This document shows positions 18,918-38,025 of a stretch of DNA of 64,000 nucleotides, one piece after another (within the stretch, counting starts at the first letter, position 1; each line of letters starts with the position of its first letter). This stretch comes from Apostichopus japonicus (taxonomy: Eukaryota > Echinodermata > Holothuroidea > Aspidochirotida > Stichopodidae). The stretch is taken from NCBI RefSeq assembly GCF_037975245.1, contig NC_092566.1:9714001-9778000 (forward strand), written 5' to 3'. A program made the position numbers and the translations under genes. Under the pieces are notes generated by a model. The model ran no database searches and was not told the DNA's origin. It saw nothing but the letters and a program-made list of their open reading frames with translations.

Positions 18918-19109
18918 TGCTCCTGGGAGGCCTAAAGGGGGTCTAAAATTGCCTTAATTGACCAAATTTTGCACCACATGTACTTCCATTCATGCTTTTC
19001 AACATGCCACAATAAAAACTGATGCTGATTGATAACAGGTCAAAAAAGATGTTCTCCTGCTTCTTTTTGGCACTTCTCCTGATATAGAATAGCAATCGGT
19101 CGGATGGAT
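18918..19109 (+). repeat. Dispersed repeat R3, left half split by the transposon
   Basis: The sequence from CCTGGGAGGCCTAAAGG to the ATAGTA target site is repeated at 37905-38010, 42790-42960 (inverted) and 63043-63245. Its right half continues at 37797-37905 beyond the transposon. The transposon therefore inserted inside an older repeat. Confidence 0.7.
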
Positions 19110-19115
19110 ATAGTA
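19110..19115. repeat. Target site duplication, left (ATAGTA)
   Basis: This 6-bp direct repeat is identical to 37791-37796 and abuts both ends of the transposon exactly. Confidence 0.9.
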
Positions 19116-19160
19116 TATGGTTGGCCGTTTGGGTCATAACGTCTGAATGAAACGCGTAAC
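19116..19160 (+). repeat. Left terminal inverted repeat
   Basis: These 45 bp match the reverse complement of 37746-37790 at 42 positions; mismatches are at TIR positions 14, 35 and 45. A 21-bp core starting ACGTCTGAA recurs 42 bp further in (19139 and 19181), so the left end has a duplicated subterminal module that the right end lacks. Confidence 0.92.
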
Positions 19161-19296
19161 GTATTTTTTTACGCGTAAAGACGTCTGAACGAAACGCGTA
19201 AGGTAATTGTTTACGCGTAAAGAATTTGGCCAATCAAATCGCACCATTCCCTGAACGTGGGAAGATATTTATATTACACGTAACAATTATGATTCA
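19161..19296 (+). promoter_or_regulatory. Putative transposase promoter in the left end
   Basis: The 181 bp between the transposon tip and the transposase ATG contain two perfect 12-bp palindromes TTTACGCGTAAA (19168-19179 and 19210-19221) and a CCAAT box (19230-19234). The right end has the same order: a one-mismatch palindrome (37726-37737) and an inverted CCAAT (ATTGG, 37714-37718). The TIR regions thus look like both transposase binding sites and promoters. That role is inferred. Confidence 0.5.
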
Positions 19297-22200
19297 ATGT
19301 GTATGATGGCAAATTCACGACGAATCAATACAATTCACGAACGCCTTAATCAGACAAGACAAGAACCTGTTTTTATGAGGCGTATGTTACGTGTTGTGGA
19401 TGATTGTGTGCGACTATCCTCATCAGATAATGTCCCGAACGAGACACTAGATTACTGCATTTTAAGGTATGATACTAGGAAAAACTACGAATAACGTAAG
19501 TTTAAGCCTAGCCTAGTGTTAGGCTAGGAACCACAATGTATAGCCTAGGCCTAATCCTAGGCTAGGACTTAACACATTAGGCATAACTTTTTAGCCTACT
19601 GTAGGCTAGCATAATAGTTGACTGATATGTATATTACGCACTTAACAAATGATTCATACTAAAGTTAGGCCCTGGACATTAGGCATACAGCCCTAGGCTA
19701 TCATATTCATAGGCACAAAGTAGAACTAGCCAACAGTTACCTTAGGCCTAGACTGAAATAGCCAGTACGATGCTGCATTAATTGGTGTTAAAACTGTTAT
19801 ATTGATGTTGGGTTATAAAATTAACGTAATTATCAATGACATTTTCATATATCTTTATAAAAATTTCCTGGATCCACCCTTGTATGTACCAGTCATGATC
19901 CTTGAATCATGATCAGTGCATTAGCCACACGGCCTCCACAGTCCACACTATCACACATACATAATCACCCTATTCCATAGATGCATGTTTCTTGCCAAGT
20001 TGCCAATATAATATTGATGTTGTTATGCACTGTTTATAGGGAAACAATTTTAATCTTTCTTATACATGTGATACAGTAGAATATTATTGTTAAGTGACAT
20101 CAGTATCCCCTCTACATTTGAATTAATTTATTGATCATGTTTTTCATGTTGTCTTTTAAAGACTTGAAGCATTGGAGAGAAGTGTCCAGCGTGCACGTGG
20201 AACTGTTGTAGATGATAGAACGTATGATGACCTCAATGAATTACTCAAAGGACTCATTGAAGAATTTCACAAAGGGAAGCATGATAATATTGGTAAGTAC
20301 ATTTTCCACTACATTACATGCCCACTTCAGAATAAATTTTTTTTTTTTTTTAAATGAGCTATTTAGCATCAAAATAATTCTTCCCCTGTTCTGTGAAAAA
20401 AATAAAAAGGGAATATACACATACCAATGTATTAAATACAACAAAACAAAGATTATTTGGTTGCTAAATTCTAAGAATTTTGCTGTTGTAACTGTACACA
20501 TTTCTGAAAAGTATATATCTGGTCACTATAGATGACCTACATACATGTAAGAATGAGGCATGCAGGTGTGATGTGTGCGTCAACATTCCCAACCTGACTT
20601 AGCCGGAATAAAAGGTTTTTGTGTTTGACCCTTGTTATTCTCAAATATCTTGAAAAAAAAGCAAAATAGCAAGGGTACACCTTAGTCACTTTAAGACATC
20701 TCAATAACAAGTGTTTCCTTAATTTTAACTTGACCCATGTTGATCTCAAATGACATTTGACCTCTAAAGAAAGGATTTACCTACTACGAATAACCATCTA
20801 TTACCCCCAATTTTATGCAAATTGTCACACACATATGTATGCACGGAGCACACACAAAAATCAGCTACATTTCTACGTTCACCCTTTTTTAATATATTGC
20901 TTTTTGTCTTTCAGTTCACACAGGTTATCAAGCTGAAAGGACATTACAAACAAGAGGGGCTCCAAAATACAACATCAGCAGAGATCAACTTTCATTTCTT
21001 CTCCATTGTGGCTTTGGCACATCAAGGATATCAGAACTGCTGGGAATTTCAGTGAGCACAGTAAAAAGAAGAATAAGGTACCATGTTGTGTTTTTTCACA
21101 AGTTTATAATTTAAATTTTTTTTTGATGATTAAGGAAAAAGGTCCTGTCCAGAATAAGGCTTTATATATCTTGCTTGGTGGGCAAATTATAGCATATGTG
21201 TGTGCCTGTCTGTGTGTGTTTCATTGGCTAAATTACATAATTTATGAATCTGAAGCAATGAAGCTTTTTAGCATGTTATGATCAGAACTATGTGACTGCT
21301 GATGGCAAAACCTTCTAGCAAAGCTAGTAGTTCTCGAAACTGACCACTCTTTGTCCATAAAATATGCCAATTAATTCGGCTAATTTTGCATAATTTGTGA
21401 AGGTTAAATGGTACCTATACAACTACACTAAATCAGCTATATGCTTAGTTTCTTACCATGTTGCACCTTTTCCCCTAATTCCATGGGATGGGGTTAAGGC
21501 AAACGTTGATTGGCTAAGTTTCATTACTGATGATGTAAATGAACTTGACATCTTGACTAGACAAAATTTCGCCCATAATGGTGCAATATTTCAGTTTAAC
21601 AGAGAGTTAAAAAGATGATACTTGCATTGGTGATGACCTTTTAGTACAATAGCATTGATGTTTATATTTTATTTTATTCTCAGAACATTTGAATTACAAT
21701 CTCAAGCTGAATATAGTGCCATCGGTGATGATGAACTTGACAACTTTGTACGGCAGGAGATAAGTAGCAACCATAGGATAGGTCCAAATGCTGTGAGAGC
21801 CAGACTCTTCTCACACCAACATAGAATTCAGAGATGGAGAGTTCGTGAAAGCATGTTACGAGTTGACCCTGGTGGAGCAGCATTAAGAACAGCTCCATCA
21901 ATGCAGCGCCGAACATATAGTGTTGCTGGGCCCAATTCCCTTTGGCATATTGATGGAAACCATAAACTGGTTAGGTGAGTTCAAAGATAAGGTATCATGT
22001 TTCGATAATTATTAGTGTTTGCACCGGGTAGCAAAATTGGAATAATCCAAGAAACTGATAATGAAACTGTTCGAACATCTTCACATCATGTGACAGCTTG
22101 TACACTAGCTCATTAATATACAAGTTATGAACACAAGAAAGCAAAGTGCAAATATTCATGAGGCATACAAAATTGATCTAATATATCATTTTGATATACC

Positions 22201-23249
22201 ATCTTTGACAGATTGTCATAACATGCACACACTACTATATAAATGAATCTGCCTTTGACATTGTAACCGAAAAGATAAATACATATGTCATTGCCGATGA
22301 TATGTGGTATGTGTAGCCAAATCCATTTTAGTATGCTACATGTCGCTAACATGGCCACAGATATTGACTTTACATATGTGATTTACCCCAAACTCCCATG
22401 TCCTTTCTTATACTCCTGCTACTAATGACCAGCACATACACAAGCATGACTTCCAGTGTTCCTGTCTTGACATATATGACATATTTTTGCATGTTTATTT
22501 TCAGGTGGAAGATGGTTATCCATGGAGGAATAGATGGATTTAGCAGGCTAATTGTTTTCCTGCATGCATCTAACAACAACAGAAAAGAGACGGTGTTTGA
22601 ACATTTTGTCACTGCTACAACTCTCTGTGGTATTCCTTCTCGAATTCGAGTTGATCATGGAGGGGAAAATAATGATATCTGTGATGCTATGGAGCTACTC
22701 AGAGGACCCAACAGAGGTTCTGCAATACGTGGTCGTAGTGTCCACAACCAACGAATCGAGCGGAACTGGGTAGATCTTTGGAATGGAGCTACACATTTTT
22801 TCTATGATTTATTTCACTTCATGGAACAGAGTCACCACCTAGATGTAGATAACCATACACACATGTGGGCATTACATTACATTTTTTTGCCTCGTCTAAA
22901 TGCAGAGCTCAAAGCATTTGTAGATCAGTGGAACAACCATGGTCTACGTACAGAAGGTCATCAAACACCAATGCAGCTTTTTGTTGGCCATGCTTTGGAA
23001 CTTAGTAATGCAAGATTAACTGCAATGGAGGATATATTTAGATCCACAGATACTCAAGCTGTGTTGTTTGATGGTGAAGAGTGGGATGATCAAGGAATTG
23101 TGGCTGTTGATGAGCTTTGGTGTCCACTGGAAGAGGAAGCCGTGCAGAGATTGAGAGAATCAATCAATCCACTTTCTGAAAATGACCAACTTGGAATTAC
23201 TTCATACTTGAATGTGCTAACATTTATTCACGAACACATGCAAAGATAA
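19297..23249 (+). CDS. Integrase-like DDE transposase, 499 aa
   Basis: Five exons, 19297-19466, 20162-20292, 20915-21077, 21684-21974 and 22505-23249, join in phase to 1500 nt. Residues ~125-154 form a helix-turn-helix-like segment ending in ISVSTVKRRIR, probably for DNA binding. A conserved region follows (YSVAGPNSLWHIDGNHKL), then an RNase H-fold integrase core with D245 in WHIDG, D302 in RVDHGGEN and E337 in NQRIERNW. D302 and E337 are 34 residues apart, as in DD34-35E enzymes. The core resembles the integrase-core proteins widespread in fish and invertebrate genomes and is distantly like IS3/retroviral integrases. Expected role: nuclear cleavage and strand transfer of the element. No stops or frameshifts; catalytic residues intact. 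ATG at 19297 is used; another in-frame ATG follows two codons later. Confidence 0.9.
19500..19760. repeat. Left subterminal cluster of TAGGCCTA-type palindromes
   Basis: Transposase intron 1 is packed with overlapping CTAGGC/GCCTAG words in both orientations. A matching cluster lies near the right end at 36650-37450. The same words also occur outside the transposon (18420-18450, 60290-60400, 62030-62300), so they are not exclusive to it. Confidence 0.5.
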
Positions 23250-25267
23250 AAATGAATTCCTAAACAAAACACAAATGTGTGTCAAGATTCCTTGTCCTAA
23301 AGTATACAAGAAATCAATGTGGGTGACACAGACCAATAACCCCCCCCCCACCAATTGGCCACCATTGACCCCCCCCCCCCCCATATGACCACATCAGACA
23401 CTATTAAGCCCCAGTATGCATGTGTCCAGGTTATTAATCCCACCAAAATATTTAATACTTTATTGATCCCTTTCTGACCCCAGAAACCTTATGACATTAT
23501 TTATGTCATGAGGTATGTAATCCACCCCCCCCCCCAAAAAAAAAAAAAATTGACCAAAACAAGTTACCAAAAAAAATTGAACACAAAAATTGATTTTGTT
23601 CGGTTTTTAACAAATATTTGTGTATGTTCAGTGGAAATTTGACTGTCTCTTTTTACAATGACTTTTTCTTGGGAGATGCTACTCTTATCTGTAATTGTTT
23701 TGCTTTCTAAAACCACAAAATTGCCTAGCCAGCCCATTTAAGGATTAGTCTAGTGACAAATTAAACTGGACTGAAAAAAAGTAACCTATGCAATTAAGTT
23801 GGAATATGCAATGTATTTGTTGCGATGATTTGGCATGTTTGTATGTTGTGATCGAGTTGGCATGTGTGTATATGTATGTTGAATAAATAGCTGACTCAGA
23901 CAATTAAAGGGATAGTCTATAGTGAAAATAGGTAATGAACTAAATCTGGTATTACATGTACCTATAGAGTATAGGGAAATCTTATGTGAGTGGGGTATGA
24001 TTAATGTGTTGATAGTAAGGTGTGAAGCTGGTAAAATGTGATGGGTGGGGGGTGGGGGGGGGACAGGTGGGTAGGGTGATGTCGGGGTTGTATGATGGTA
24101 GGTAAGGCTGCAGGTGGTATGATGGTAAGGGTTGCCTCTGAGTTGGGGATATGGGTTGTGCTGTATACTGATCCCCAGGTGGTTGTCTCGAGAGGGGGGG
24201 TGGGGTGGTGAAATGCCTTTAGTCAACTATATCACTTTCTTCAACTTTAATATGTTCATCAATTGAGGCATTAATTTTTGGTTTTGTTCATGATGGCCAG
24301 GTAACCTACAGGTTAGCATGTTTGCAAGTGTATGTGTACTTTTAAAATATCTGTAAATATATTGAACAACTGGTAGATATGCTCCATGATTATTACATGG
24401 ACCTCATTGTTTTTGTTGTCCATTACATGAATATGTGGATGGGGCTTGTAATCAAATTCTTAAAATGTCAATATTTTTTCAAATATATGTCTGATCACCT
24501 TCATACTTGGTGGGTTGGTAGTGCCACATGATAATGAAATTTCATTTATATTCATGAGTGCAACTATGTCTGATCAGCTTCAGTTTGGGTTCAGTTGTCT
24601 GGCAATAAGTACAATAAAGATATTACAACAAAAAATCTGACTTAAATTATTTCACAAAACTCTCATCGGAACCACCAAACCTTTGGGTTTTCTAGAGAAG
24701 ACATAATAACTACTGTCCAGTAAATTCAAAGATCAGACCTTGTGGATTTTTTTAAATGAATATATACAGTCCTGCATGTATCAAGTATTAAATTAATAAC
24801 TTGTAATGTTTAACTGATCTTTTATTTTAGACCACTATAAATTGCAGTTTTCATCTAAGTAATGCACTCAATACCACAAACAATATTAATAGTTGGTTAA
24901 TAGGCTGTTTGATCGTAATGACTCACATTTGTAATGAAGTAGGTTTAGCCCAACACCTTAAGATTGTTTTGATGCATGTTGTTATTTTATAGTCTGTTCA
25001 GGATTTTTAAACTTATTTTCATTATGACTTATTTGGTAGATGAAAAGATAATATAATTCTTGAACAAAATTCTTGCATTTATATGCATCAACATGTCACA
25101 TCCTATTATATGGGGCTTTGACCACTCTCATTTCATGTAAAAGGTTGGCAAGGTTTAATATATTGAAATCATATAGAAAGAATTCAAGATGCAAAGTTTC
25201 TGGTGTAGTGGAAATATATGATGGACTGGTAATTAACAATGATGAAGAGACACATTTCAAGGTTTTT
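23250..25267. other. Transposon interior between the convergent genes, 3' of transposase
   Basis: No supported gene. Holds poly-C runs (23340-23390, 23525-23535), an AATAAA at about 23881 that could serve the transposase transcript, and a G-rich stretch at 24040-24200. The antisense 146-aa frame over that stretch is His/Pro/Thr low-complexity and rejected. Confidence 0.45.
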
Positions 25268-26330
25268 GTAAAAACTTGGCTTTTATAAAATACCATGGAT
25301 AAAGAAAAATTCATATGCAAATCTACTATATATGTTACACAAACAGCATGAGTTAAAATTGTACTGCTAGACAACGATTGGTTTTTTAAGAAATGTAATA
25401 AAAGTCTGCCTATAATAAAACATCATGGAGGGATAGAATATTGTTTAAGCATGGCATTGGATGAGTTGAAAATACCAATTGCAAACACATTGCTGTTCTG
25501 GTCATGAAGCTTTTGCATATACCAGTTTAACCTACTATATGATATATATGGTAATATTCCATATGTATAAATACTGCTTATGAAAAATGTACATGTGAAA
25601 CTTTATGAAATACTATGGACGGATAATAGTTCATATTACACAAACAGAGCACAAGTTAAAATTGAGCTGCTAGATGACTGTGGACTTTTTAAGAAATATA
25701 ATAAAAGTCTGCCTATAATAAAACATCATGGAGGGATAGAATATTGTTTAAGCATGGCATTGGATGAGTTGAAAATAGCAATTGCAAACACATTGCTGTT
25801 CTGGTCATGAAGCTTTTGCATATACCAGTTTAACCTACTATATGATATATATGGTAATATTCCATATGTATAAATACTGCTTATGAAAAATGTACATGTG
25901 AAACTTTATGAAATACTATGGACGGATAATAGTTCATATTACACAAACAGAGCACAAGTTAAAATTGAGCTGCTAGATGACTGTGGACTTTTTAAGAAAT
26001 ATAATAAAAGTCTGCCTATAATAAAACATCATGGAGGGATAGAATATTGTTTAAGCATGGCATTGGATGAGTTGAAAATACCAATTGCAAACACATTGCT
26101 GTTCTGGTCATGAAGCTTTTGTACATACCAGTTTAACCTACTATATATGTATAAATACTGCTTATGAAAAATGTACATGTGAAACTTTATGAAATACTAT
26201 GGACGGATAAAAGTTCATATCACACAAACAGAGCACAAGTTTCTATGTTAAAATACTGCTTTTCCATGGATGGATAATAGTTAATATCTACTATATATGT
26301 TACACAAACATACCTTCAATGAAAGTATAT
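25268..26330 (+). repeat. 303-bp tandem repeat inside the transposon
   Basis: Two complete units (25508-25810 and 25811-26113) begin at AGCTTTTG and are nearly identical. A diverged partial unit precedes them (from about 25268) and partial units follow (to about 26330). Each full unit has a 76-codon open frame starting MKNVHVKLYE, at 25580-25810 and 25883-26113. The two differ at one residue (A versus P) and resemble no protein I know. Strand assignment follows that frame. Confidence 0.85.
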
Positions 26331-26803
26331 AGCAGTTAATAAAGCTAAAAATGAAAGTGTAACATGAGCATGTAAATATATTTAAAAATGAAGGCAACTC
26401 ACCAGCATTTTCATTTTTTTTTAACAACAGAGTAAAGGACATTTTAAGTGGAACCACGGGAGCACTAATGGTGCATTAGATCATATAAAACTATGAAATG
26501 TACGGTTCTAGCCAGTATTTTGTTTAAACCAGGCAGAATTGAATATTTACTACCCAATCCAATACCACTGGCTTATAGTACTGATAACAAAACATAATCA
26601 CTACTTCTGATTCTAACTGCAATAAATTCTGCAGGCTTTTAAGGTGTTTCAGAAAATTACCAAAAGAATGTTCAACAAAGAATTTTGAAAGTGTGTAGGC
26701 AGACAGTGAGAGTGAGACAGCACAATCTTTTAGGCTCCACTGGTATGATTAAGAGCCAAAAAATTACATGAGTGCTGTGTATTAAGGTTATTGCACATGG
26801 CAT

Positions 26804-29800
26804 TTACACAAAGCCAATTTCCCAGAAGTCTGAGTTTAACTGGCGTACCAGTTCATTCTTAAACTCCTTGTAACTGGTGTAACTCACAGGTACCTCAAGA
26901 GTGCTGGTACATGTATGAGCAACAAACCGTCGCTGAAGACCAACGAATGAATTAAAATAAACCTCTATATTTGGCACTGCCATAGCATCACTCCCTGTAC
27001 AAAATCTCAGAAACTTCATGAGAAGTTCCCCTTCAAAAGATCTTACAGCTCTGATGAGGTACTCCAAAACCTTTTGCTGTAGGCTGTTCTCAGGCTCAGC
27101 TTTCAGGGACTTTGCTACACTCTTACCAGTCGGTTGTAGAGAGTTGTATAAATCAATAATGCCAGAAATTGTTCTGAATTCTTGAATTTCAAACAAAATT
27201 TCAAGATCCATTGAAGCAAGGGCAAAACTGGGCTTCTGGATAAGTTCAACCTTTGCACATTGTAATGTGATGGCCGAAAGTGTTTCTGGTGTGATTTGGC
27301 AGGTGACACCCAGCCTTCCAAACAACACCAACAATGTTTCAAGGGTGTCTTCATCAAATGCATGCATGTCAAGTGCCTTCCTCAAAACATCACCTTCATT
27401 CCTACTGAGAGTTGCAACAAAGCCCTCCATCAGCAGATCATCACAGACTTCATTATCGCCATAAATTGCAGATATGAGGCATGCTTTGCTAAACTGTATG
27501 GGGAAGTACCCCACACTATTAAATCCAATATACAGGATTTTCCCCATAGTTTTAAAATCTCTTGGGGTAAGATGTGGGTGAACTGTGGGTATAAACTGAC
27601 CATCACCTACAAAGTATCTAGCAGAAACTGTCTGCCAGAACTCTGTCAGTGCATCCCTAAATATGCCTTTAGCATCCACACCCTCTTCTCCAAAAAATTT
27701 AATTCTAAATACGCACTCCACATCGGCATCTCTGAACAATTCCAGCATATCTTTTTCAATGTAATTTCTTCTCACAGTGAAAAACCTGAAAGGTCAATAA
27801 AAAAGAAAGTCTCTAATGAATATAGAAAGTATACCTCTTCATATAAAGGTGAGACATGGTAATTGTAAAAGTGAGTAAACAATAAATCCCCTTAAAAATT
27901 ATTGTGCATCGCACTTTGACTTATATGCCAAGCCCTTTTAATATATAAATCTGGTTATATCGGTCAATAGGCCATGTTTGTTTTGAACATTAGGTGACCT
28001 TTGACCTAAAAATAGTATCTGTTCAATTTTGGAGTATGCAACTCATTTATATACTAGCTTAATTTAAGTTTTACTTATTGAGTTAACATGATTACAATAT
28101 TTTTACTATTTGACCTCTGGTGACCTTTGACCTCTTGTAAAACAAATAGCGATTATATACTAATTATGGGCCTATGTGCCATCTATCAGATTTGTCCCTG
28201 TTTCTCCTAATGAGAAAGCATTCTTTGAGGATTTGGGAATAAACATTTACAATACATTAAATTCAAATTTTTGCTTACCTTGGGGTTGGTACCCATTCTG
28301 GTGGTGGTGATGGAGATCTTGGTGAGGATGGTTGTCTTGGTGAGGGTGGTGGTCTTGGTGAGGATGGTGGTCTTGGTGAGGATGGTTGTCTTGGTGAGGG
28401 TGGTTGTCTTGGTGAGGGTGGTTGTCTTGGTGAGGATGGTTGTCTTGGTGAGGATGGTTGTCTTGGTGAGGATGGTTGTCTTGGTGAGGATGGTTGTCTT
28501 GGTGAGGGTGGTTGTCTTGGTGAGGATGTTGGTCTTGGTGAGGATGGTGGTCTTGGTGTTGAGTATATCAATGCATGAGTTTGTGACCTTAAGAGGGAAT
28601 AGAAAACTGATATGAAAACTCTCTATAGGAAACATACATATGAGAATGAGACATTCAATAAGCTAGTTCGTAGATAGCCTATAGACATTATACGTATAGA
28701 GGTCACTGGTCCGTCTGTGAGAATTTTCTTTTTGGCACACGACTCGCAAGCACCATATATGTGTACACACTATTTTGCATTAACGAAAACAAAACAAAGA
28801 AATGTAACATTCCCGAAATGGATGGAATTGGATCCTACATACATCCATGAAATACAGCTATGGAATGTCACGACACCCCAGGAGTTCTTGAGGGAACATT
28901 TTCGTAGAGCATATCCTAGCTGCGTTTGATAGGCCTAAGAACTACTTGCAAAAGGTAAATCAGATTTATTGGTGCAGAGATTGGGGTTAGGATATACATA
29001 ATATTGGTCCAAACGTTAGGATACACTATAGGCCTAGGAAATGTAACGATGCGGTGATTGACCGTGGATTATCAATTTTAACTGTGAGGTTATCATCGAT
29101 TAACTCATGGTCAGCTGACTATAATGGACCAATCAGATTGTAGAATTGTAACTAGGTATGAATTAATAAAACTTTAACACCCAAATTTAACGTCAATGAC
29201 CAATAACTCACGGCGGGTTCGACGTCAAGACTGGTGGCGTCGATGTGACACTTGGTGCAGGCCTTTGAATTGTTGGGAGGACTCCAGCTTGTGCTGATTT
29301 GAACTGGACCTTCAAAAGAAATAGTAATTTGTATGTTGGTATTTGAACTATTTTAAATAAGATTACAAAATACAAAGAATGTCTGCATACAAAAAAAAAA
29401 ACAGAAACATCGAAAACAATGAATAACAAAGTGCTCAATAGCTCTTAAGTGCACCAATGACAACAAATGATCCACTATTATCCAATGTTAATTGCATTCC
29501 ATTAATTGCATTGTGGCCAGACTCCATGACCATCAATAACACTTGATCTAAAATATCTCTACCACTGGAGTTTCTTGAAAATCTATGAAAGACTGAATTC
29601 AATTTTTTTTAAATGAAACATTTTAATTTGCACATTCTGATAAATTTATTTTTGTTGTACAAGCCCCAATTTTATTCCTTGTTGGAGGTGTAAGGAATCT
29701 ATGCAGTCATGCATGTGTGTCTGTCTGTACATATGTCTGAGACACTTCTTTTAAACACGATAAGTGGAAGACGCAAGGTCGGACATGGCTCATACTTGGG

Positions 29801-32800
29801 TGGTAGATTACCCATAGTGAGTAGATGATCCCAATTGTTTTGGTGGAGGTCAAAGGTCAGCAGAGGTTAAAAGATGAAAACATTGTAAACACCATAGCTT
29901 CACTAAGGAAACTTCAATTGAGTTCATACTTAGTATATATGTTAGCCATGGTAGATGATCCCTATTGTTATTGGTAGGGGTCAAAGGTAATATGAGGTCA
30001 CCAGTGGTCAAACACTGAAAACATTGTAACTTATCAAAGTAAACTTCAATTAAGTTCATATTAGGCATATATGTTAGTCGTAATGAGTATATGGTCCCTA
30101 TTATTTGAGAAATACTTAATCGACCTTCACTTATCTGATGATTTGAATACCAAAGACAAGGAATCATGTAGCCCTCGGTTCTTGTCTCTATAGTGCTACA
30201 TGTTTTCATGCTGAATCTGCCATGTGTATTTTCTATATTTGAGAATGAAAATCAACAAAAACAATTGTAGCAATACCACTGTTACATATAACCATACTTA
30301 CACTTGGTGTTCCTGCATCAACAAATGTACTTCCCTCTTCATCAGTGGAATTATTTTCCTCCATCTCTCCATCCTGTAAACAAGCACAAATTGTATGTGC
30401 ATGTTGTCATTCCTTGTCAAAGTACCTGTACACCTTTATTATAAATTCATTGTCAATGTCTTGACATGTACCATATATATTTTTGCCATTACAATGTTTT
30501 TGATGCTTATATCTTGTATATGTTGTCCTCATGTTATCTCTGACCAAAAGCAATATGGCTCTTGTACTCATGGCCAACCTACATACATGCTAAATATGCA
30601 CTTCATGTTCACCTTATTGAGTTATGTTTATGCATAACTTACATCATCAATCCATGATACTGTAAAAGTTGTAGGCCTTGTTATTCCAAGATCCTTCAGC
30701 TTTTTTTTATTGCTGGGAATATCCTCCACATTTTTGAAGCTTGGTTGTCCCCCAGGGCAGGCTATTGTGAAGGCCTTCGTTGCAGAGGATTGACACCCTA
30801 CAAAAAGCATCAGTTCCTGAAAGAAGGCGTATTATGTAATATACATTCAAGTTGTTATTCTATTGATGAATATTGTACAAAATTTGTTTGAGACCTGGCC
30901 ACCATCTCAACTTCAATCCTGTTATTTTCCCTCATTTGTTTGTGACTCAATGATTGTGACTCTCAGTTTGACTACATGGGTCTTAGTTAAAAATGCCACA
31001 TTTATTAAGACATTTGTAGCAAAGGTGTTTCCACTGGCTCAGATGGGATGAAGGATTCAGATAATCATATCCATCACCATATTCTATCAAGGTTTTTGGT
31101 TACGATGCCAAAGACCAAGTAACCTATGCGATCATGTTTAGGAATTCACAAAATCTTGGAAACTATAGTCCAACTAGTGGCTGCCCATGATGATTAGAAT
31201 GGCCCTATTTTTTGTATCTACAGTCCTTGCCAAAAATGTTTGGCCCAAACAGTCATTAAACAGCATACTGTTAATTTGCCATCAGTGCCCCCCCCCACCC
31301 TTTCTTCCTGATATTGTAGCAAAATCCTTTCAGAACATGCAAGACTGATATGGGGAGTGGTTTTGTCAAGGATTGTATGGATGTATTGTACCAAGGATTG
31401 TCTGAAGCCTGTACAAAAGTATAGGTTACATATTTAATATTCCTGACAAGCCTAGTTGCATTAGCCAAATGAGACATTTTGAAGCAGTTCTGTTGATTTC
31501 ATGTTAAATGAGGGATGCTGTTATACAAAAATGATAAAAATGATAGTATAAATTTCTTTTTTGCATAATACATTAATTAGGTAATAAAATCCCTATTCAA
31601 TTCATGTTCCTACTTCTACAACTTTTTCTATTTTCTACAACTATGTGCCAGTGCAGGGCTAATAAGGACAAAGGAAATAATAACATTAACTCACATCAAC
31701 AGTGCTGTCCTGAGTAACTCTTCTTAATCTGTGGGTACCACTTGGCAGTATAAACTTAACTGGGAATCCAAATGGCGATTCATCCTCTGGATCGAGCATT
31801 TGTGACCGTCTCTGCAGCAGGTTTGCCTTTATAAATAAAACACAAATGTTTGTAGCGATGCAATGGGATACAAATAATATTGTCTGGATAATTTCATCAT
31901 GACTTATAGTGTAATGGCAACAAAGAAGCAGAATATGAGGCAGAACTATTATACTATGAGATTCATCTTAGTTTCCCCCACTGAGTTAGCCTGATTACAA
32001 TGTTTTCAGTGTTTGACCCATGGTGACTTTAAATGACCTCTTATAAAATACTCAATATGGCTGACCTACATACAAAATTTGAATTTCATCCACCTTTCCT
32101 CTTCATTGGGCAAGGTGTCATACAAACATATTACATACACAGGTGAGCATTACATTCACTCAGTATGAGGAATTCATTCAAATATCCAATATCCTAACCT
32201 AGTAGGATAATAGAAATGGATAACCTTGACACTACCATAAACTTTGTTTATCTAGAGAGGACTTGGATGTATTGTATTCCTTCTGAGGACTTAAATTTCC
32301 TTTGACTGAATACCCACACACACATGCTGATGTGATTACATAGATCCCTTTTACCTTTGGCAAGGAATACAAAATTGATGAATCGTCTTAATGCTTACAA
32401 GCTGATCTCGATTTTGGTGTTCTTCTTTTGGCAAAGGATCCCCTGTTTCAAATACATCTGGAAGCTATATTAGAAACAGATTAAACAAATATTTTTTATT
32501 ATACTAGTTTGTGTTTAGTTCTAAAGAGTTCTTATAGTTCTTATTACATAATACATATGTAGCAGAGTGCTATTTTAGCCACTGTTACTATTTTCCCCCC
32601 ATGTGGTCAAACTCTCCCATTTGTACTGGTAACTATGTCATGTACATAGGGCATTGACTTCTAATACAATTGATGTCTGTTGGGAGTAAGTAGTGGTTAA
32701 CTAGAGAGAGACAAGGAGTCTATCTCTGGCCTGATTGTTTATCTTTTATCCACTTTTCTTTCTTTGTTTCCCTTTATTAATTTTTTTGGCTCTGATTACT

Positions 32801-35800
32801 TCTGAGCTTCCTGTTCTCACCCCTTACGCATTCCTGCGCTCCCAATGTGTGTTTTGTGGTAACACCCCTTATGTTATACCTGTTAGGAAGCAGCATCTGG
32901 CTTCTCTCAACTGTAAAGGCAAAACAACTCTTCTTTGTTTGTGGTCATCGGCCACCCTATAATTCTAAGTGTGAAGTTAAGATGTTTAGGGCTTAAAAAC
33001 CTAGCTACATCCAATGGATGCATCTCTCATCTGCCGACACAAACAGAGGCAACACCTTTACCACTCCTGAGAGAGAGTTGAAGACAATTTCATATGTCTT
33101 CATGATATACTGCATATTCTGATTATTCAGGTCCTACCGTATACATGTACTCTGAGATACACACCCTGGTGATGGCCTTGGACATTTAGACGCCTGGTAA
33201 TACTTATAGACGCCGGTTGTATTGAAATACCTAGGGAAGGGGCTACTCCACCCAATGGTCCCCCGAGCGGTCTAGAAACGCTGGATTGGCACGACTGCGC
33301 ACATGTCCGAGTGCAGTATTTTCTAGTTTTATAGTGTCAGTAGTCGTAACAGACTACAAGAGCGAGAGTATATTGTATTTTTATCAGTTCGTAGTTGTGG
33401 GAATGCTACAATGCATTTGTATCCACACAAACTGAGTCATTATTATTATTATTTGTGTTTATGATCTCATGTGTTCATATTCAGACCATATAGTTTATAG
33501 TAGAACAGTACTGCTCCTTGATGGTATGTGTCGTTGCGTGGTTACTGGACTTTGCTGAATATAGAAGCCAGTCGTTACCCTATCATAAATGTTTCTGCTT
33601 ATTGATTTGTGTATGTTTTTTATTAATTTCTAAGCTTCCGTCCCTATTCTAGCTGACAATTAGAGTCATTGTAAACACCCCTAACCCCGCTGCTCCTATG
33701 TCGTAGGTACATGGCGAGTAGTCGTTACACATATGTAATACACTGATATTTGTAATGTTCATTCCTAAGTATATCAAGCACAAATGCCTTCTCACATAAG
33801 TAGAGGTTATCCCCTGGCAGAGATTAATCTACCATAGCACTTGAGGTTGATTGTGGGCCCATTCCTAAAATTGCCTGCCACAAGTTATTCATACTGGTCA
33901 GTCTTTATTCCGGCACCAAATACTTCACATTACAGGTTATATATAGTCAATCAAGATGAAGTATCTTGCAAGAAACACAGGTACATTGACATATAGTTCA
34001 ATGAATGATAAATATGATTAATATGTACCCCTGTATTTTGATCTGCAATCAGGGATTCCTGAAACTCTGCATCCTGCTGGCAAACAAGACAAGCATCTTC
34101 AACAAATGTTCTTCCACAGTCTGAGCATATCTAAAAAAAAATATTCAACAATCATTTGTCAACAAGCAACAAATGGTATCTTCAGACGATGCCCCATGAT
34201 ATAGGAGGGGCATGAAAAGCTTTGAGTAAGCTTGGGTCGCCTTTGTCCAATTGATATATCATTTCAGTGCCCCGACCAGGCCCCAGTCTATCATGACATA
34301 TTATTTTTAGCTATGAACTCGGGCAGTGTGACCCTGTGAGGCTCAAACCTGATGTGCCAAGGTTTAGTGGAGAGTGGACCAGAGTGGGCCCTCAGGATGC
34401 AGGGTCCAGAAACATGCCAAGGTCCTAAGATTGTAAGTTCCGTAAGTGACTGGTCTTCTCAAACTATGGTGCTGAAAGGTCTGGGGAATTCCCCCCCCCC
34501 CCCCGCATGTTGAACCTACACTTCGCTTAGATCTCCCTATGAAAATTAACTCACCGTGGAGGTTCCAACTTCATCCTCATTAGTAGCCTCATCAACAGCC
34601 TCATTAGCATTATGTTGAACCTGTTATTTAAGCACAAATTGTATAGTCATTTATTAACAGGGTAACAAAGTAAGTTTTTAATTATAAATAACAACATGAA
34701 ACAACAGTAAAACATGAATTATTTTACTACAAAATGCATAAATATGTCTCAAAGGCTGTAAACAAAGTACTCCATTTAATAATCTTAAATCTTTAAAATG
34801 CACTATACCTCTGTAAGTGGTCTTATATAAATGCATGAGCGTTTAAGCCCAACCCACGTCTTGATGGCATGAGGGCAATTAACACCTTCTGGGAAAGGTT
34901 CCAGCTTTCTGCCACTGCTTGCTGGTCCACAGCGACACAATTCAAACTGAACACCTTCCAGAGATGGAAATTCTTGTCTCAGGCGCATTAAAAAGTTTGT
35001 GCAAGACAGCTGCAAAGGAAGGCATAATTTCTTTTTATAACCTTGGCTGGTGTCAACTGTTGGAAGAAGAGATAAATACATGCAATTATTCATGAATCAT
35101 TGCTTTACAAGTTAAGTCAGATGATCAAAGTTGATTTTAGTCAGTTAAAGATATATAGCTATAGTATAGCTATAGCTATGAGTTTCATCAAAGTTTCCCC
35201 TATTGAGTGAGTCAGATTACAAGGTTTTACGTTTTTTACCCATATTGATCTTAAATGACCTTTGACCTCTTATAAAATAAATGTAGTTCATCGGCGCAAT
35301 ATGGCTATCATACGTATGAATGTTTGAATTTCATCTAGCATTCCCCTATTGAGTTATCCTGATAACGAGCAGGCATCACAAGGTGGGTTTTGCATTTAAT
35401 CTGAGAACTCCATAGAATTATCCTCTATCATAACCATGACAATAACCTAACCATTGTTTAAATGTCCGACTACCTTTTGTCCTATTTAATTTTTCTTCCT
35501 CGGACCTGAGGCTGAAAGTCCTTTTACAGGTCCTCAGACCTGCTGCAAAATCTGTCCACACACACATACACGCCAACGTGATGACATAGATTCATTTTAC
35601 CTTGGGCAAGGAATAAAAAATTATCGCTACAATCCCTACAGCATGAGAAGGTATTCAATTGTTTTATGATGTCCTCTAATCTCTATGATCCATGGATTAT
35701 GACATTTGACCTGGTAAACTGAAGGTAGCACTACCCATGTATCATCATTTTGACTTACATTAAAAAGAACTAAAGAAAATTATGTAGGCTTTCAATTGTC

Positions 35801-37517
35801 CTTTGTACTAAAATTCCCTAAGCCCAACAATGGCATACAACCCATAATCAATGGGTCTACTGCACCATCAAGATCCATGAAAGCTTGATTGCATGGTACC
35901 TATTTACACAAGTGAACAGATATATAGATAATGATAAATATTAGATAAATAGATAAAGAAAGAGCACAGTCACAATAGCTCAACCTTGCAGCAAACTTAT
36001 ATCACTTACCATTTGTACCTTTGACATTGTTTTTCGTTGTGCCCGATCTGACTAAAATGTAAGTATTTGTGTAAGTTTTCTGTTTTTTCTCCGCTTGTTG
36101 TGGTCTTCTCGATACAGCTATGGGGACACGTTGGAAATTGTTGAATCTTAAAATAGGAAAAATGAAATAAGTTTATAAGTATATATAGCTCCATAAATGT
36201 GTGATAAACATAAATTTTTAAATAAGGTACGTTTTCTGCAAAAAAAACATGAATGACTTATTCATCAGGCTGTAAAAATAGCGAACATTCCTTGAATTAT
36301 TTAAAAAGTCATGTTTAATCCTGCACGCCACTCACTGTTTCCCTATTTTTCAGCATTTACATATAGCATTTATATCTAGGCTACCAAAACATAATTGCAA
36401 AATGGATTTTCTGAAAATTGTTTACAGTATGTAAAAATACCTCAGCCCAGCTTGGGCAGAATAGGCTACACCAGAATGATCGTTTAAATAAGCAGTAAAA
36501 CTCATGGGTGCAAGGGCGGCGCCAGTAGGGGAAAGGTTTGGGGGCTGTGTGTGTCCCAAACTCCCCAATCAACAAATGCTGCCCCCCCCCCCCTTGGGAT
36601 TGGTCATTACCATAGTAATATAACTGATGATCAATCGAATAGGCAACGCAATAGTGATAATTTAACTACACTCTCTAAAGTTAGGCCTTGGGGGCTTAGG
36701 CCTACTGTGCCGCATCTAATTCATGGATGATCAGTTAAAATAAACAGCATAACAGTGCCCATTCAACAGATGATCAGATAAATCAGCAGCAAATTCAATC
36801 ATTTTGTTGTACTTTTGGACTCACACATCAATCCAACAATGCACCGTAGGCCCCTAGGCTACAAGCGATGTTTCAGGCTATAGCCTAAACCTAGGCCCCT
36901 ATAGCCAAGGCCTTACATTATGTAAAAAGGTCTGGGCCTAGCCTATAGACCTTATCGCAAATAGGAGACCACAAAGCATCTTGGGAAGAAATATTCTGAA
37001 TGGTCCAGCTTGGCCCCATACACAAATGGCAAATTGTAAATTTACTTTCGTCTATTACATTCGGTGATTTTCTTAAGAAAATTGTTAGGTTTCTTTTGAC
37101 TGACTCAGAAAATTTGTGGGTTTTCTTTGATCCATAGTGGTCTGTAAACATTCTTGTGGAATGATTTTACATTGCCTGGCTACGACAAGATCGATGGGAC
37201 GGACAGTGTTCGTAATAATCCTTCCCAGAATGCAATTATAAAAGCGCACTCTTCCAATTTGCGATAAGGTCTAGGACCTATGCTGTTTTTAATAGGAATA
37301 GGGCCTTTTAAGTTTAGGCCTAGGGGCTGAGCTAGGATTAACCTAACTTATTATTGTGTCCTCGCCAATTCAGGCACTGTTACTGTAACGTTAGTGTTAG
37401 GCCTAGAACTATAGCCTAACTTAGAGCCTAGCTAGGCTAGGCCCTAACCTGGGGCCCTAACGTATTTACTTACTCAGCAACGAAATCGGTGGGAAAATTC
37501 CTTGAAGTTGTAGGCAT
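26804..37517 (-). CDS. UBX/zinc-ribbon/HECT E3 ubiquitin ligase-like protein, 809 aa
   Basis: Twelve exons in transcript order: 37474-37517, 36010-36146, 34809-35056, 34555-34620, 34029-34130, 32399-32464, 31695-31826, 30643-30816, 30302-30373, 29212-29309, 28279-28587, 26804-27785. All are GT-AG and sum to 2430 nt in phase. From the N-terminus: a basic region, a conserved unknown domain (~60-143), an acidic linker, a zinc ribbon CSDCG...CLVC (Cys167, 170, 179, 182), a FAF1-like QDAEFQESLIADQ helix, a UBX-like fold (~242-323, FPVKFILPSG), a proline/serine-rich SPRQP linker (~390-475) and a HECT domain (483-809). The HECT domain opens FFTVRRNYI and keeps the catalytic cysteine in AHTCTSTLEVP (Cys775). 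It is closest in style to G2E3-like HECT proteins. By family it should take ubiquitin from an E2 and pass it to a substrate; UBX folds often bind p97/VCP. Its role in transposition is unknown. Confidence 0.87.
27950..28200 (-). repeat. Dispersed repeat with DR1 nuclear-receptor-type motifs, copy 1
   Basis: The reverse strand carries AGGTCAAAGGTCA perfectly at 27995-28007 and again at 28121-28133. Related sequence, including CCC-ATTGAGTTA-type words, recurs at 29830-30130, 31960-32110 and 35150-35400, all in introns of the HECT gene. Confidence 0.55.
28310..28560 (-). repeat. 18-bp coding minisatellite (SPRQP repeats)
   Basis: About thirteen 18-bp units (plus strand GGTGAGGATGGTTGTCTT and variants) lie inside HECT exon 11. 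On the minus strand each encodes a six-residue SPRQPS/SPRQPP/SPRPPS unit. Because 18 is a multiple of three, other frames and the opposite strand are also open; those long frames are artefacts. Copy number is likely variable between alleles. Confidence 0.9.
29830..30130 (+). repeat. DR1-bearing dispersed repeat, copy 2
   Basis: A perfect AGGTCAAAGGTCA lies at 29847-29859. A degenerate second copy of the ~105-bp unit with GGGGTCAAAGGTAA follows near 29976. Shares its layout with the repeat at 27950-28200 in opposite orientation. Confidence 0.5.
31960..32110 (-). repeat. DR1-type dispersed repeat, degenerate copy 3
   Basis: Shares CCCACTGAGTTAGCCTGATTAC and TTTGACCCATGGTGAC-like words with the other copies, but the DR1 core is decayed here. 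Confidence 0.4.
32465..34028. other. Largest intron of the HECT gene (intron 5)
   Basis: I see no exon with matching phase and no recognised element in this 1.56 kb. The flanking exons (34029-34130 and 32399-32464) join directly in phase 0. Confidence 0.5.
35150..35400 (-). repeat. DR1-bearing dispersed repeat, copy 4
   Basis: A perfect DR1 on the reverse strand spans 35256-35268. Flanks share the CCCCTATTGAGT and CTTATAAAATAAAT words with the other copies. Lies in HECT intron 2. Confidence 0.5.
36650..37450. repeat. Right subterminal cluster of TAGGCCTA-type palindromes
   Basis: HECT intron 1 carries many TAGGCCTA, CTAGGC and AGGCCT words, mirroring the left cluster at 19500-19760. Position near both ends is suggestive of subterminal binding sites, but host DNA nearby has similar words. 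Confidence 0.4.
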
Positions 37518-37745
37518 AACTGATGAGTGATGTGGTGAATGAGGCCTGTTTGCCACTCGATTGGAAAGGTTATGAAGTCTTTGTTGAAATTCTTGGATCC
37601 TATTTGGGTCCATTTTGTGTTGCTCTGTCGTTACAGTCATTAACTGTCTTAAAACTATACACCTTGCACTTGTATGTTGTACTAACGCGTCACAGGTGGA
37701 ATTGCGTGCTTTGATTGGTCAAATGTTTACGTGTAAAGGATTTAC
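37518..37745 (-). promoter_or_regulatory. Putative HECT-gene promoter in the right end
   Basis: Between the HECT start codon and the right TIR lie an inverted CCAAT (ATTGG, 37714-37718) and a near-palindrome TTTACGTGTAAA (37726-37737), in the same order and spacing as at the left end. The start codon is 273 bp from the transposon tip. Confidence 0.45.
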
Positions 37746-37790
37746 CTTACGCGTTACATTCAGACGTTATGACCCACACGGCCAACCATA
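37746..37790 (-). repeat. Right terminal inverted repeat
   Basis: The reverse complement matches 19116-19160 at 42 of 45 positions. It ends CGGCCAACCATA immediately before the ATAGTA duplication. Confidence 0.92.
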
Positions 37791-37796
37791 ATAGTA
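37791..37796. repeat. Target site duplication, right (ATAGTA)
   Basis: Identical to 19110-19115. Confidence 0.9.
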
Positions 37797-38025
37797 TAGG
37801 AATATGTCGCCATAATGATGCAATTCTGCCTGTGAAGTGTAACTACATTACGTAATAGCAGTGTCTTCGTCCCGACCAACCTGAAGCAAGCCACACAAAA
37901 CACTGCAATCCACACAAAAAACTGATCCTGGTTGATAAAAGGTCAAATAAGATGTTCTCCTGCTGCTCTTTAGCACTTTTCCTGAGATAGAATTACAATC
38001 GGGCGGATGGATTGGACTCTAATCA
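37797..38025 (+). repeat. R3 right half plus a partial second R3
   Basis: 37797-37905 continues R3 after the transposon (GATGCAATTCTGCCTGTGAA to CCAACCTGAAG). 37905-38010 is another partial copy of the R3 left half, ending at GGCGGATGGAT. Confidence 0.65.

Follow-up and report, generated by a model that had tools for sequence, protein, structure and literature searches.

The question raised by this locus is whether a gene for a HECT ubiquitin ligase-like protein, which lies between the terminal inverted repeats (TIRs) of a DNA transposon and beside its transposase gene, is part of the transposon or merely carried by it. The locus occupies positions 19116 to 37790 of the window, the stretch of 64,000 nucleotides of the sea cucumber Apostichopus japonicus analysed here (contig NC_092566.1, positions 9,714,001 to 9,778,000), and a sequence-only reading, made without database searches, had claimed a two-gene DNA transposon in which an integrase-like DDE transposase is accompanied by a HECT protein acting as a component. 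This is borne out by the copies of the element and by the pairing of the two genes across the genome. The locus is very likely an IS3EU-type two-gene transposon with the HECT gene as a long-standing component, not an accidental passenger, because the same pair in the same orientation recurs in diverged families and both genes are intact in three copies. What is new is that the second gene of an IS3EU-type element codes for a HECT ligase; the superfamily itself was already known. The element, its ends and its transposase gene are located as follows.

19116..37790, no strand assigned: whole IS3EU-type transposon, 18,675 bp, delimited by the TIRs, the 6-bp duplication and the homology limits of two other copies
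19110..19115, forward strand: left target site duplication, ATAGTA
37791..37796, forward strand: right target site duplication, ATAGTA
19116..19163, forward strand: left TIR, 48 nt, starting TATGG
37743..37790, reverse strand: right TIR, 48 nt, last bases CCATA
19181..19206, forward strand: internal second copy of part of the TIR (repeat pair of 26 nt, 92%)
19297-19466, 20162-20292, 20915-21077, 21684-21974 and 22505-23249, forward strand: the five exons of the transposase gene, 499 amino acids (aa)

The limits given by the sequence-only reading are exact, as judged from the TIRs and from the 6-bp duplication ATAGTA, which is present on both sides as it had reported. The left and right TIRs are the same at 45 of 48 positions (94%), and the earlier figure of 42 of 45 was likewise reproduced. 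The genome of A. japonicus (671.6 Mb in 35 contigs) was searched, the window family being named A and the others B to I, and two further full copies of family A were found on contigs C12 and C3 (18,474 and 18,357 bp), their homology with the window element stopping 3 bp or less from its ends. The three copies are 99.4-99.6% identical over aligned positions and each is flanked by an exact 6-bp duplication of its own, ATAGTA at the window and GTCGTC and GCCGTC at the others, of which GTCGTC lies inside a microsatellite and is therefore weaker evidence. Even with this reservation, three different exact duplications at three copies are more than chance, and the window element belongs to the IS3EU type of cut-and-paste DNA transposons and has moved recently. 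Damaged, more distant relatives of it are found on C17. The HECT gene is present in all three full-length copies that share the window's ends, and both genes, which had been reported stop-free in the window, are also free of stops in the two further copies, with every splice site kept in all three. Differences between copies number 2-5 per 1500 bases in the transposase exons and 4-10 per ~2500 in the HECT exons, and 8-18 per ~2430 and 41-57 per ~8275 in the respective introns.

Two minor features of the insertion may be added. A 103-bp direct repeat, 86% identical, flanks the element on the outside (window 19007-19109 and 37910-38012), and the element seems to have landed within this duplicated stretch. 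Between the two genes, at window ~25330-26250, lie near-identical tandem blocks of ~300 bp each, and the other two family A copies seem to have one block fewer.

Across the genome, the window HECT domain as query gave 43 matches and the main part of the window transposase 88, and Pfam models, which are independent of the window, gave 96 HECT and at least 143 transposase matches, the latter a lower bound in that 150 of 224 candidates were scored. Clustering of the Pfam matches yielded 58 HECT loci and 83 transposase loci. A transposase locus lies within 20 kb of 34 of the 58 HECT loci, and all 34 pairs are arranged tail to tail; when HECT loci were placed at random on their own contigs in 2000 trials, with the largest coordinate seen standing in for the length of some contigs, the mean was 0.22 and the maximum 3 pairs within 20 kb. 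When matches found with the window HECT domain and with the relative P0122 were included, the count rose to 44 of 80 HECT loci paired within 20 kb, again without exception tail to tail, and at 30 kb this enlarged set has 47 paired loci, 46 of them tail to tail. Seen from the transposase side, 45 of the 83 loci have a tail-to-tail HECT partner within 20 kb, as do 18 of the 22 intact transposase frames, these being open frames of at least 250 aa with no stop in the match, picked by hand from the Pfam table. The 24 unpaired Pfam HECT loci are probably host HECT genes; at 16 of them the Pfam model matches at least twice, as expected of genes with several exons.

Beyond family A, the pair could be placed inside elements with defined ends and duplications in family D (C17:6325041-6345475, 20.4 kb, duplication CTCCCG) and in family E (C1:12260970-12283636, 22.7 kb, duplication CGGCCG), each with matches to both genes. 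The left end of the family D element, TATGGCAAGCCG, was located by comparison of two copies, and the right end by a genome search for the end together with the expected duplication, which returned two places, one lying downstream within that element. The other place (C21:14390224-14390241), likewise an exact match to this end plus CTCCCG, is perhaps another insertion at a like site. At the ends of the family D and E elements (L073, L075, L076 and L077), arrays of short palindromes adjoin the TIR. Within families B to H, copies have ~87-99.9% DNA identity over aligned parts on the HECT side, and on the transposase side 97-99.9% in families B, D, E and F, those with several transposase loci compared. 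The exact 15-base end shared by D and E occurs 626 times in the genome (299 forward, 327 reverse), with no occurrence of its backward control, and among the 100 places listed, the first ones on C1 to C3, many pair at a distance of 0.2-3 kb. These short pairs look like non-autonomous derivatives and, given that they lack both genes, being too short for either, they provide no argument that the HECT gene alone is dispensable.

A number of observations weigh against the HECT gene being a component. The pair has been shown together with ends and duplications in the three families A, D and E; 38 of the 83 transposase loci have no tail-to-tail HECT match within 20 kb; and for 4 of the 22 intact transposase frames no HECT was found. 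Many of the unpaired transposase loci are decayed or may escape detection of a partner, and certain elements may manage without HECT. Codon changes in the HECT gene between pairs of family A copies are 4:4, 2:2 and 2:6 (synonymous:nonsynonymous), so that these three copies show no clear constraint on it; for the transposase the ratios are 1:1, 4:1 and 3:0. The ratio of nonsynonymous to synonymous rates (dN/dS) of the HECT gene within families is 0 in C (one change), 0.05 in E, 0.11 in B, 0.38 in G, 0.61 in D and 0.97 in F, and is 0.76 between the window and its C17 relative, each value resting on 15 or fewer changes and hence deciding little. Over the short term the HECT values are thus mixed (0 to 0.97), and those of the transposase lie between 0 and 0.26 (B 0, one change; E 0.22; D 0.26). 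Finally, the transposases of families A and I are 66% identical and their HECT domains 25% identical over a partial stretch of 160 aa, which suggests an exchange or an unrelated neighbour.

Over longer distances the pattern is more favourable. The comparison of families D and F shows saturation at synonymous sites, and the dN of 0.30-0.32 for HECT and 0.37 for the transposase points to a long-run constraint that would act on both genes. Fifteen HECT exons from seven families, chosen among the better copies, contain no stops, and stops are present in other HECT copies, for example L023, L024, L027 and L031. The distances between nine families correlate for HECT and transposase (Mantel r 0.50, P 0.013), family H being represented on the HECT side by the unpaired locus L023, which is 94-98% identical to the paired locus L038, and the groups C-G-H and D-E-F appear in both trees. 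For the most part, then, the two genes share one line of descent, and at least one exchange is possible.

The placement of the element within IS3EU rests on its ends and duplication. Published accounts give IS3EU (also IS3EU/GingerRoot) 6-bp duplications, TA..TA termini and a DDE transposase related to IS3/IS481-type integrases (PMC12730594, PMC10045372), and the fungal TET+ IS3EU elements TAYGG..CCRTA ends and TIRs of more than 30 bp (PMC12730594). The TATGG..CCATA termini of families A, D and E fit both patterns, five elements of these three families carry 6-bp duplications (ATAGTA, GTCGTC, GCCGTC, CTCCCG and CGGCCG), and the window TIRs of 48 nt (94%) exceed the 30 bp of the fungal families. 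By termini, TIR length and duplication, the window element fits the IS3EU superfamily, and its transposase matches the Pfam model rva_4. The introns of the transposase gene are all GT..AG, and its product agrees at all 499 residues with the NCBI entry P0002, an 'uncharacterized protein [Apostichopus japonicus]', so that the five-exon model is independently supported. Residues 233-425 form the integrase core (rva_4, PF24764, E 2.2e-85), with rve matching only under its cut-off, and matches under Pfam cut-offs indicate a helix-turn-helix-like stretch at residues ~127-160. The length of 499 aa and the three acidic residues that had been reported were both recovered: D245, D302 and E337, with 34 residues separating the last two, are invariant across 15 aligned proteins from animals, one fungus and metagenomes. 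A profile of the transposase matched none of the solved structures at E <= 0.01. Its relatives comprise 1406 matched proteins, and the 120 of these that were listed include proteins of fishes, mussels, corals, a sea urchin, a hemichordate, a priapulid, a tardigrade, a sponge and Rhizophagus.

The second gene lies on the opposite strand, its stop codon facing that of the transposase gene at a distance of ~3.6 kb.

26804..37613, reverse strand: HECT E3 ligase-like gene, 12 exons, 841 aa, hand model from splice sites and frame
37613-37474, 36146-36010, 35056-34809, 34620-34555, 34130-34029 and 32464-32399, reverse strand: HECT gene exons 1-6
31826-31695, 30816-30643, 30373-30302, 29309-29212, 28587-28279 and 27785-26804, reverse strand: HECT gene exons 7-12
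26804..27785, reverse strand: HECT domain exon with the catalytic-type cysteine C807
28279..28587, reverse strand: exon 11 with an in-frame 18-bp minisatellite (SSPRQP-type linker)
30643..31826, reverse strand: exons 7-8, the stretch taken for the UBX region of the sequence-only reading, without a profile match

This model was built by hand and, unlike that of the transposase, no independent annotation of it was found. The 12 exons proposed earlier stand, and the length of 809 aa becomes 841 aa in the present model. The number of minisatellite repeats in exon 11 varies between the three family A copies with the frame kept, giving proteins of 841, 871 and 847 aa. The HECT domain makes up the last third of the 841-aa protein, where PF00632 scores 29.5 bits (cut-off 23.9; E 7.8e-07), and the best PDB matches of the window domain are TOM1 (E 4.4e-05) and HUWE1 (E 3.3e-04); a profile built from the nine aligned HECT sequences described below matched HUWE1 over profile positions 2-316 of 323 (E 4.8e-15) with the HTC cysteine motif aligned. 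The likeness to HUWE1 and TOM1 therefore consists of the HECT catalytic domain and its HTC motif, but it is weak and confined to the HECT domain, the rest of the protein having no match to these ligases. C807, the catalytic-type cysteine, sits in a VAHTC motif, and the corresponding T294 and C295 are invariant in nine aligned sequences, namely the window, seven other loci of the genome from six other families and one metagenomic relative, the other eight being 27-32% identical to the window HECT domain. The catalytic cysteine of the sequence-only reading is thereby confirmed as a conserved position, and the predicted protein, with PF00632 over its cut-off and this cysteine, has the hallmarks of a HECT domain.

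The UBX domain that had also been claimed finds no sequence support. The exon 7-8 stretch matched no Pfam family at E <= 10, UBX included, and among PDB sequences gave only one chance match (E 1.7), and a profile search with the N-terminal region that is conserved among eight relatives, from sea cucumber, fishes, beetles and unnamed sources, gave one match at E 1.5 and no UBX. A link of the HECT protein to p97 consequently has no basis here. The first 60-70 residues of three of these relatives have a SAM-like look, which was rejected when the best profile match reached E 0.039 and no SAM protein was recognised. As for the wider family, HECT residues 510-841 as a protein query returned one metagenomic relative, and an alignment headed by the family G HECT gave 45 protein matches, some unnamed or metagenomic, among them uncharacterized fish and beetle proteins with a HECT domain, for example Danio rerio P0129, Xiphophorus P0130 and Phaedon P0145. 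A further relative, P0155 of Neoarius graeffei, is listed with PF14291 and two more domains, and the Pfam scan made here gave none at E <= 1.

With both genes described, the alternatives to a HECT gene that belongs to the element can be weighed. That a transposase relic merely came to lie beside a host HECT gene, with coincidental TIRs, has in its favour nothing beyond what a single locus would allow, and is refuted by the three separately located copies, each with its own duplication, and by pairs that are tail to tail in 34 of 34 cases against a random maximum of 3; its probability is negligible. The length of 18.7 kb and the integrase-type transposase would suit a Polinton/Maverick that had captured a HECT gene. 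Such elements carry a gene for a protein-primed DNA polymerase B together with other virus-like genes, whereas no DNA polymerase or capsid-type Pfam domain was found in the two genes and four further frames (108-198 aa) of the window element. A duplication of 6 bp is published for Polinton too (PMC10045372), but the termini are as published for IS3EU and the transposase matches rva_4 at 2.2e-85 with rve under cut-off. Given the absence of the other genes from the proteins scanned and the IS3EU-type termini, a Polinton/Maverick is highly improbable and was rejected. It is also conceivable that a host gene was captured once by an ancestor and has been carried since without benefit, which would agree with the 38 transposase loci that have no detectable partner, with the HECT loci resembling host genes in the same genome and with the lack of clear constraint among the family A copies. 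HECT-free copies of TIRs and transposase-free HECT loci do exist; on the other side stand a HECT gene that is intact in all three full-length copies of family A, pairs in one orientation at 44 loci, and a cysteine that is invariant at 27-32% identity to the window, a distance over which a passenger is expected to decay. A passenger is for these reasons very unlikely.

If the HECT gene is a component, its role has to be considered. A DDE transposase, TIRs and integration with a 6-bp stagger are established for the family; the transposase would bind the TIRs, excise the element and reinsert it with this stagger. The HECT protein would take ubiquitin on C807 and pass it to a target chosen by the N-terminal half, so ubiquitinating a protein that limits transposition, and it may be catalytically active and have been retained because it aids the spread of the element. 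By eye, families C and G have an N-terminal half unlike that of the window protein. Unfoldases drive the disassembly of the complexes of other transposases, and in a like manner the HECT protein might target the transposase or the strand-transfer complex of the element that encodes it, limiting transposase dosage or stripping the complex from DNA after integration. This self-directed role would suit a protein whose gene lies in the element and travels along with that of the transposase, with family distances that correlate as for touching partners, but A and I, the two of the nine families with the most alike transposases, differ strongly in their HECT domains and no p97-binding UBX domain was found by sequence; it is the second choice and rather unlikely. 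A host silencing or repair factor is tentatively favoured as the target, with something approaching an even chance, because accessory enzymes of transposons can serve host escape, as the TET/JBP genes of fungal transposons have been read (PMC12730594). A bolder combination, in which HECT is an ancient, near-obligatory second gene of an animal IS3EU branch in the place of the fungal alpha-kinase and a transposon-encoded weapon tagging silencing or repair proteins of the host for destruction, its fast-changing N-terminal half choosing the target, is a possible but doubtful reading.

Two known kinds of transposon come close to the element. In the account of fungal TET+ IS3EU elements, transposase and alpha-kinase genes stand in opposite orientations with a TET/JBP gene between them (PMC12730594). 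The window element shares the opposed arrangement of its transposase gene and another enzyme gene, and differs in that HECT is in the corresponding place. The alpha-kinase model PF02816 has no match in either window gene model and a single genomic site, at about 15.91 Mb of C19, which is ~0.4 Mb from the nearest listed transposase. Ginger1 elements carry OTU or Ulp1 domains, and an involvement of the ubiquitin pathway in transposition was put forward by the authors who described them (PMC2836005). As in the window element, an integrase-like transposase is there combined with a ubiquitin/SUMO-pathway enzyme, but in Ginger1 this is a protease, removing ubiquitin or SUMO, that forms the C-terminal domain of the transposase, with target sites of 4 bp, whereas the window has a separate ligase gene. 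No published description of a HECT gene in IS3EU was found in the literature search, which lay outside Repbase Reports; titles and abstracts gave nothing relevant on IS3EU with ubiquitin; and no title among the matches listed in wider literature searches concerned a HECT gene in any transposon.

Enzymes removing ubiquitin or SUMO (Ginger1, PMC2836005) or acting on DNA methylation (PMC12730594) are already known from transposons, and a conserved ligase would be the opposite tool. If the ligase reading is true, the proteins it tags would reveal what limits a DNA transposon, and a transposon HECT offers a direct test of the earlier suggestion of a ubiquitin pathway in transposition (PMC2836005). 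On the bolder reading above, many 'uncharacterized' fish and beetle proteins with a HECT domain would be transposon genes, and a set of such proteins in animal annotations could be re-labelled accordingly.

Further observations concern the distribution of these elements. Among viral contigs searched for relatives, 35 pattern matches were obtained and none was confirmed. Three contigs of a Cycloclasticus sponge-symbiont assembly (3.4-4.2 kb; L079, L080 and L081) contain IS3EU-type transposases of 43-47% identity and are probably sponge DNA left in a bacterial record; there was no significant HECT match in these contigs of only 3.4-4.2 kb, and by eye some reading frames of L080 resemble those of retroelements. 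Within the sea cucumber genome, C17 makes up 5.5% of the sequence and holds 35 of the 83 transposase loci, 32 of these at 15-26 Mb, and 19 of the 58 HECT loci, and this accumulation zone is perhaps heterochromatin or a region of low recombination.

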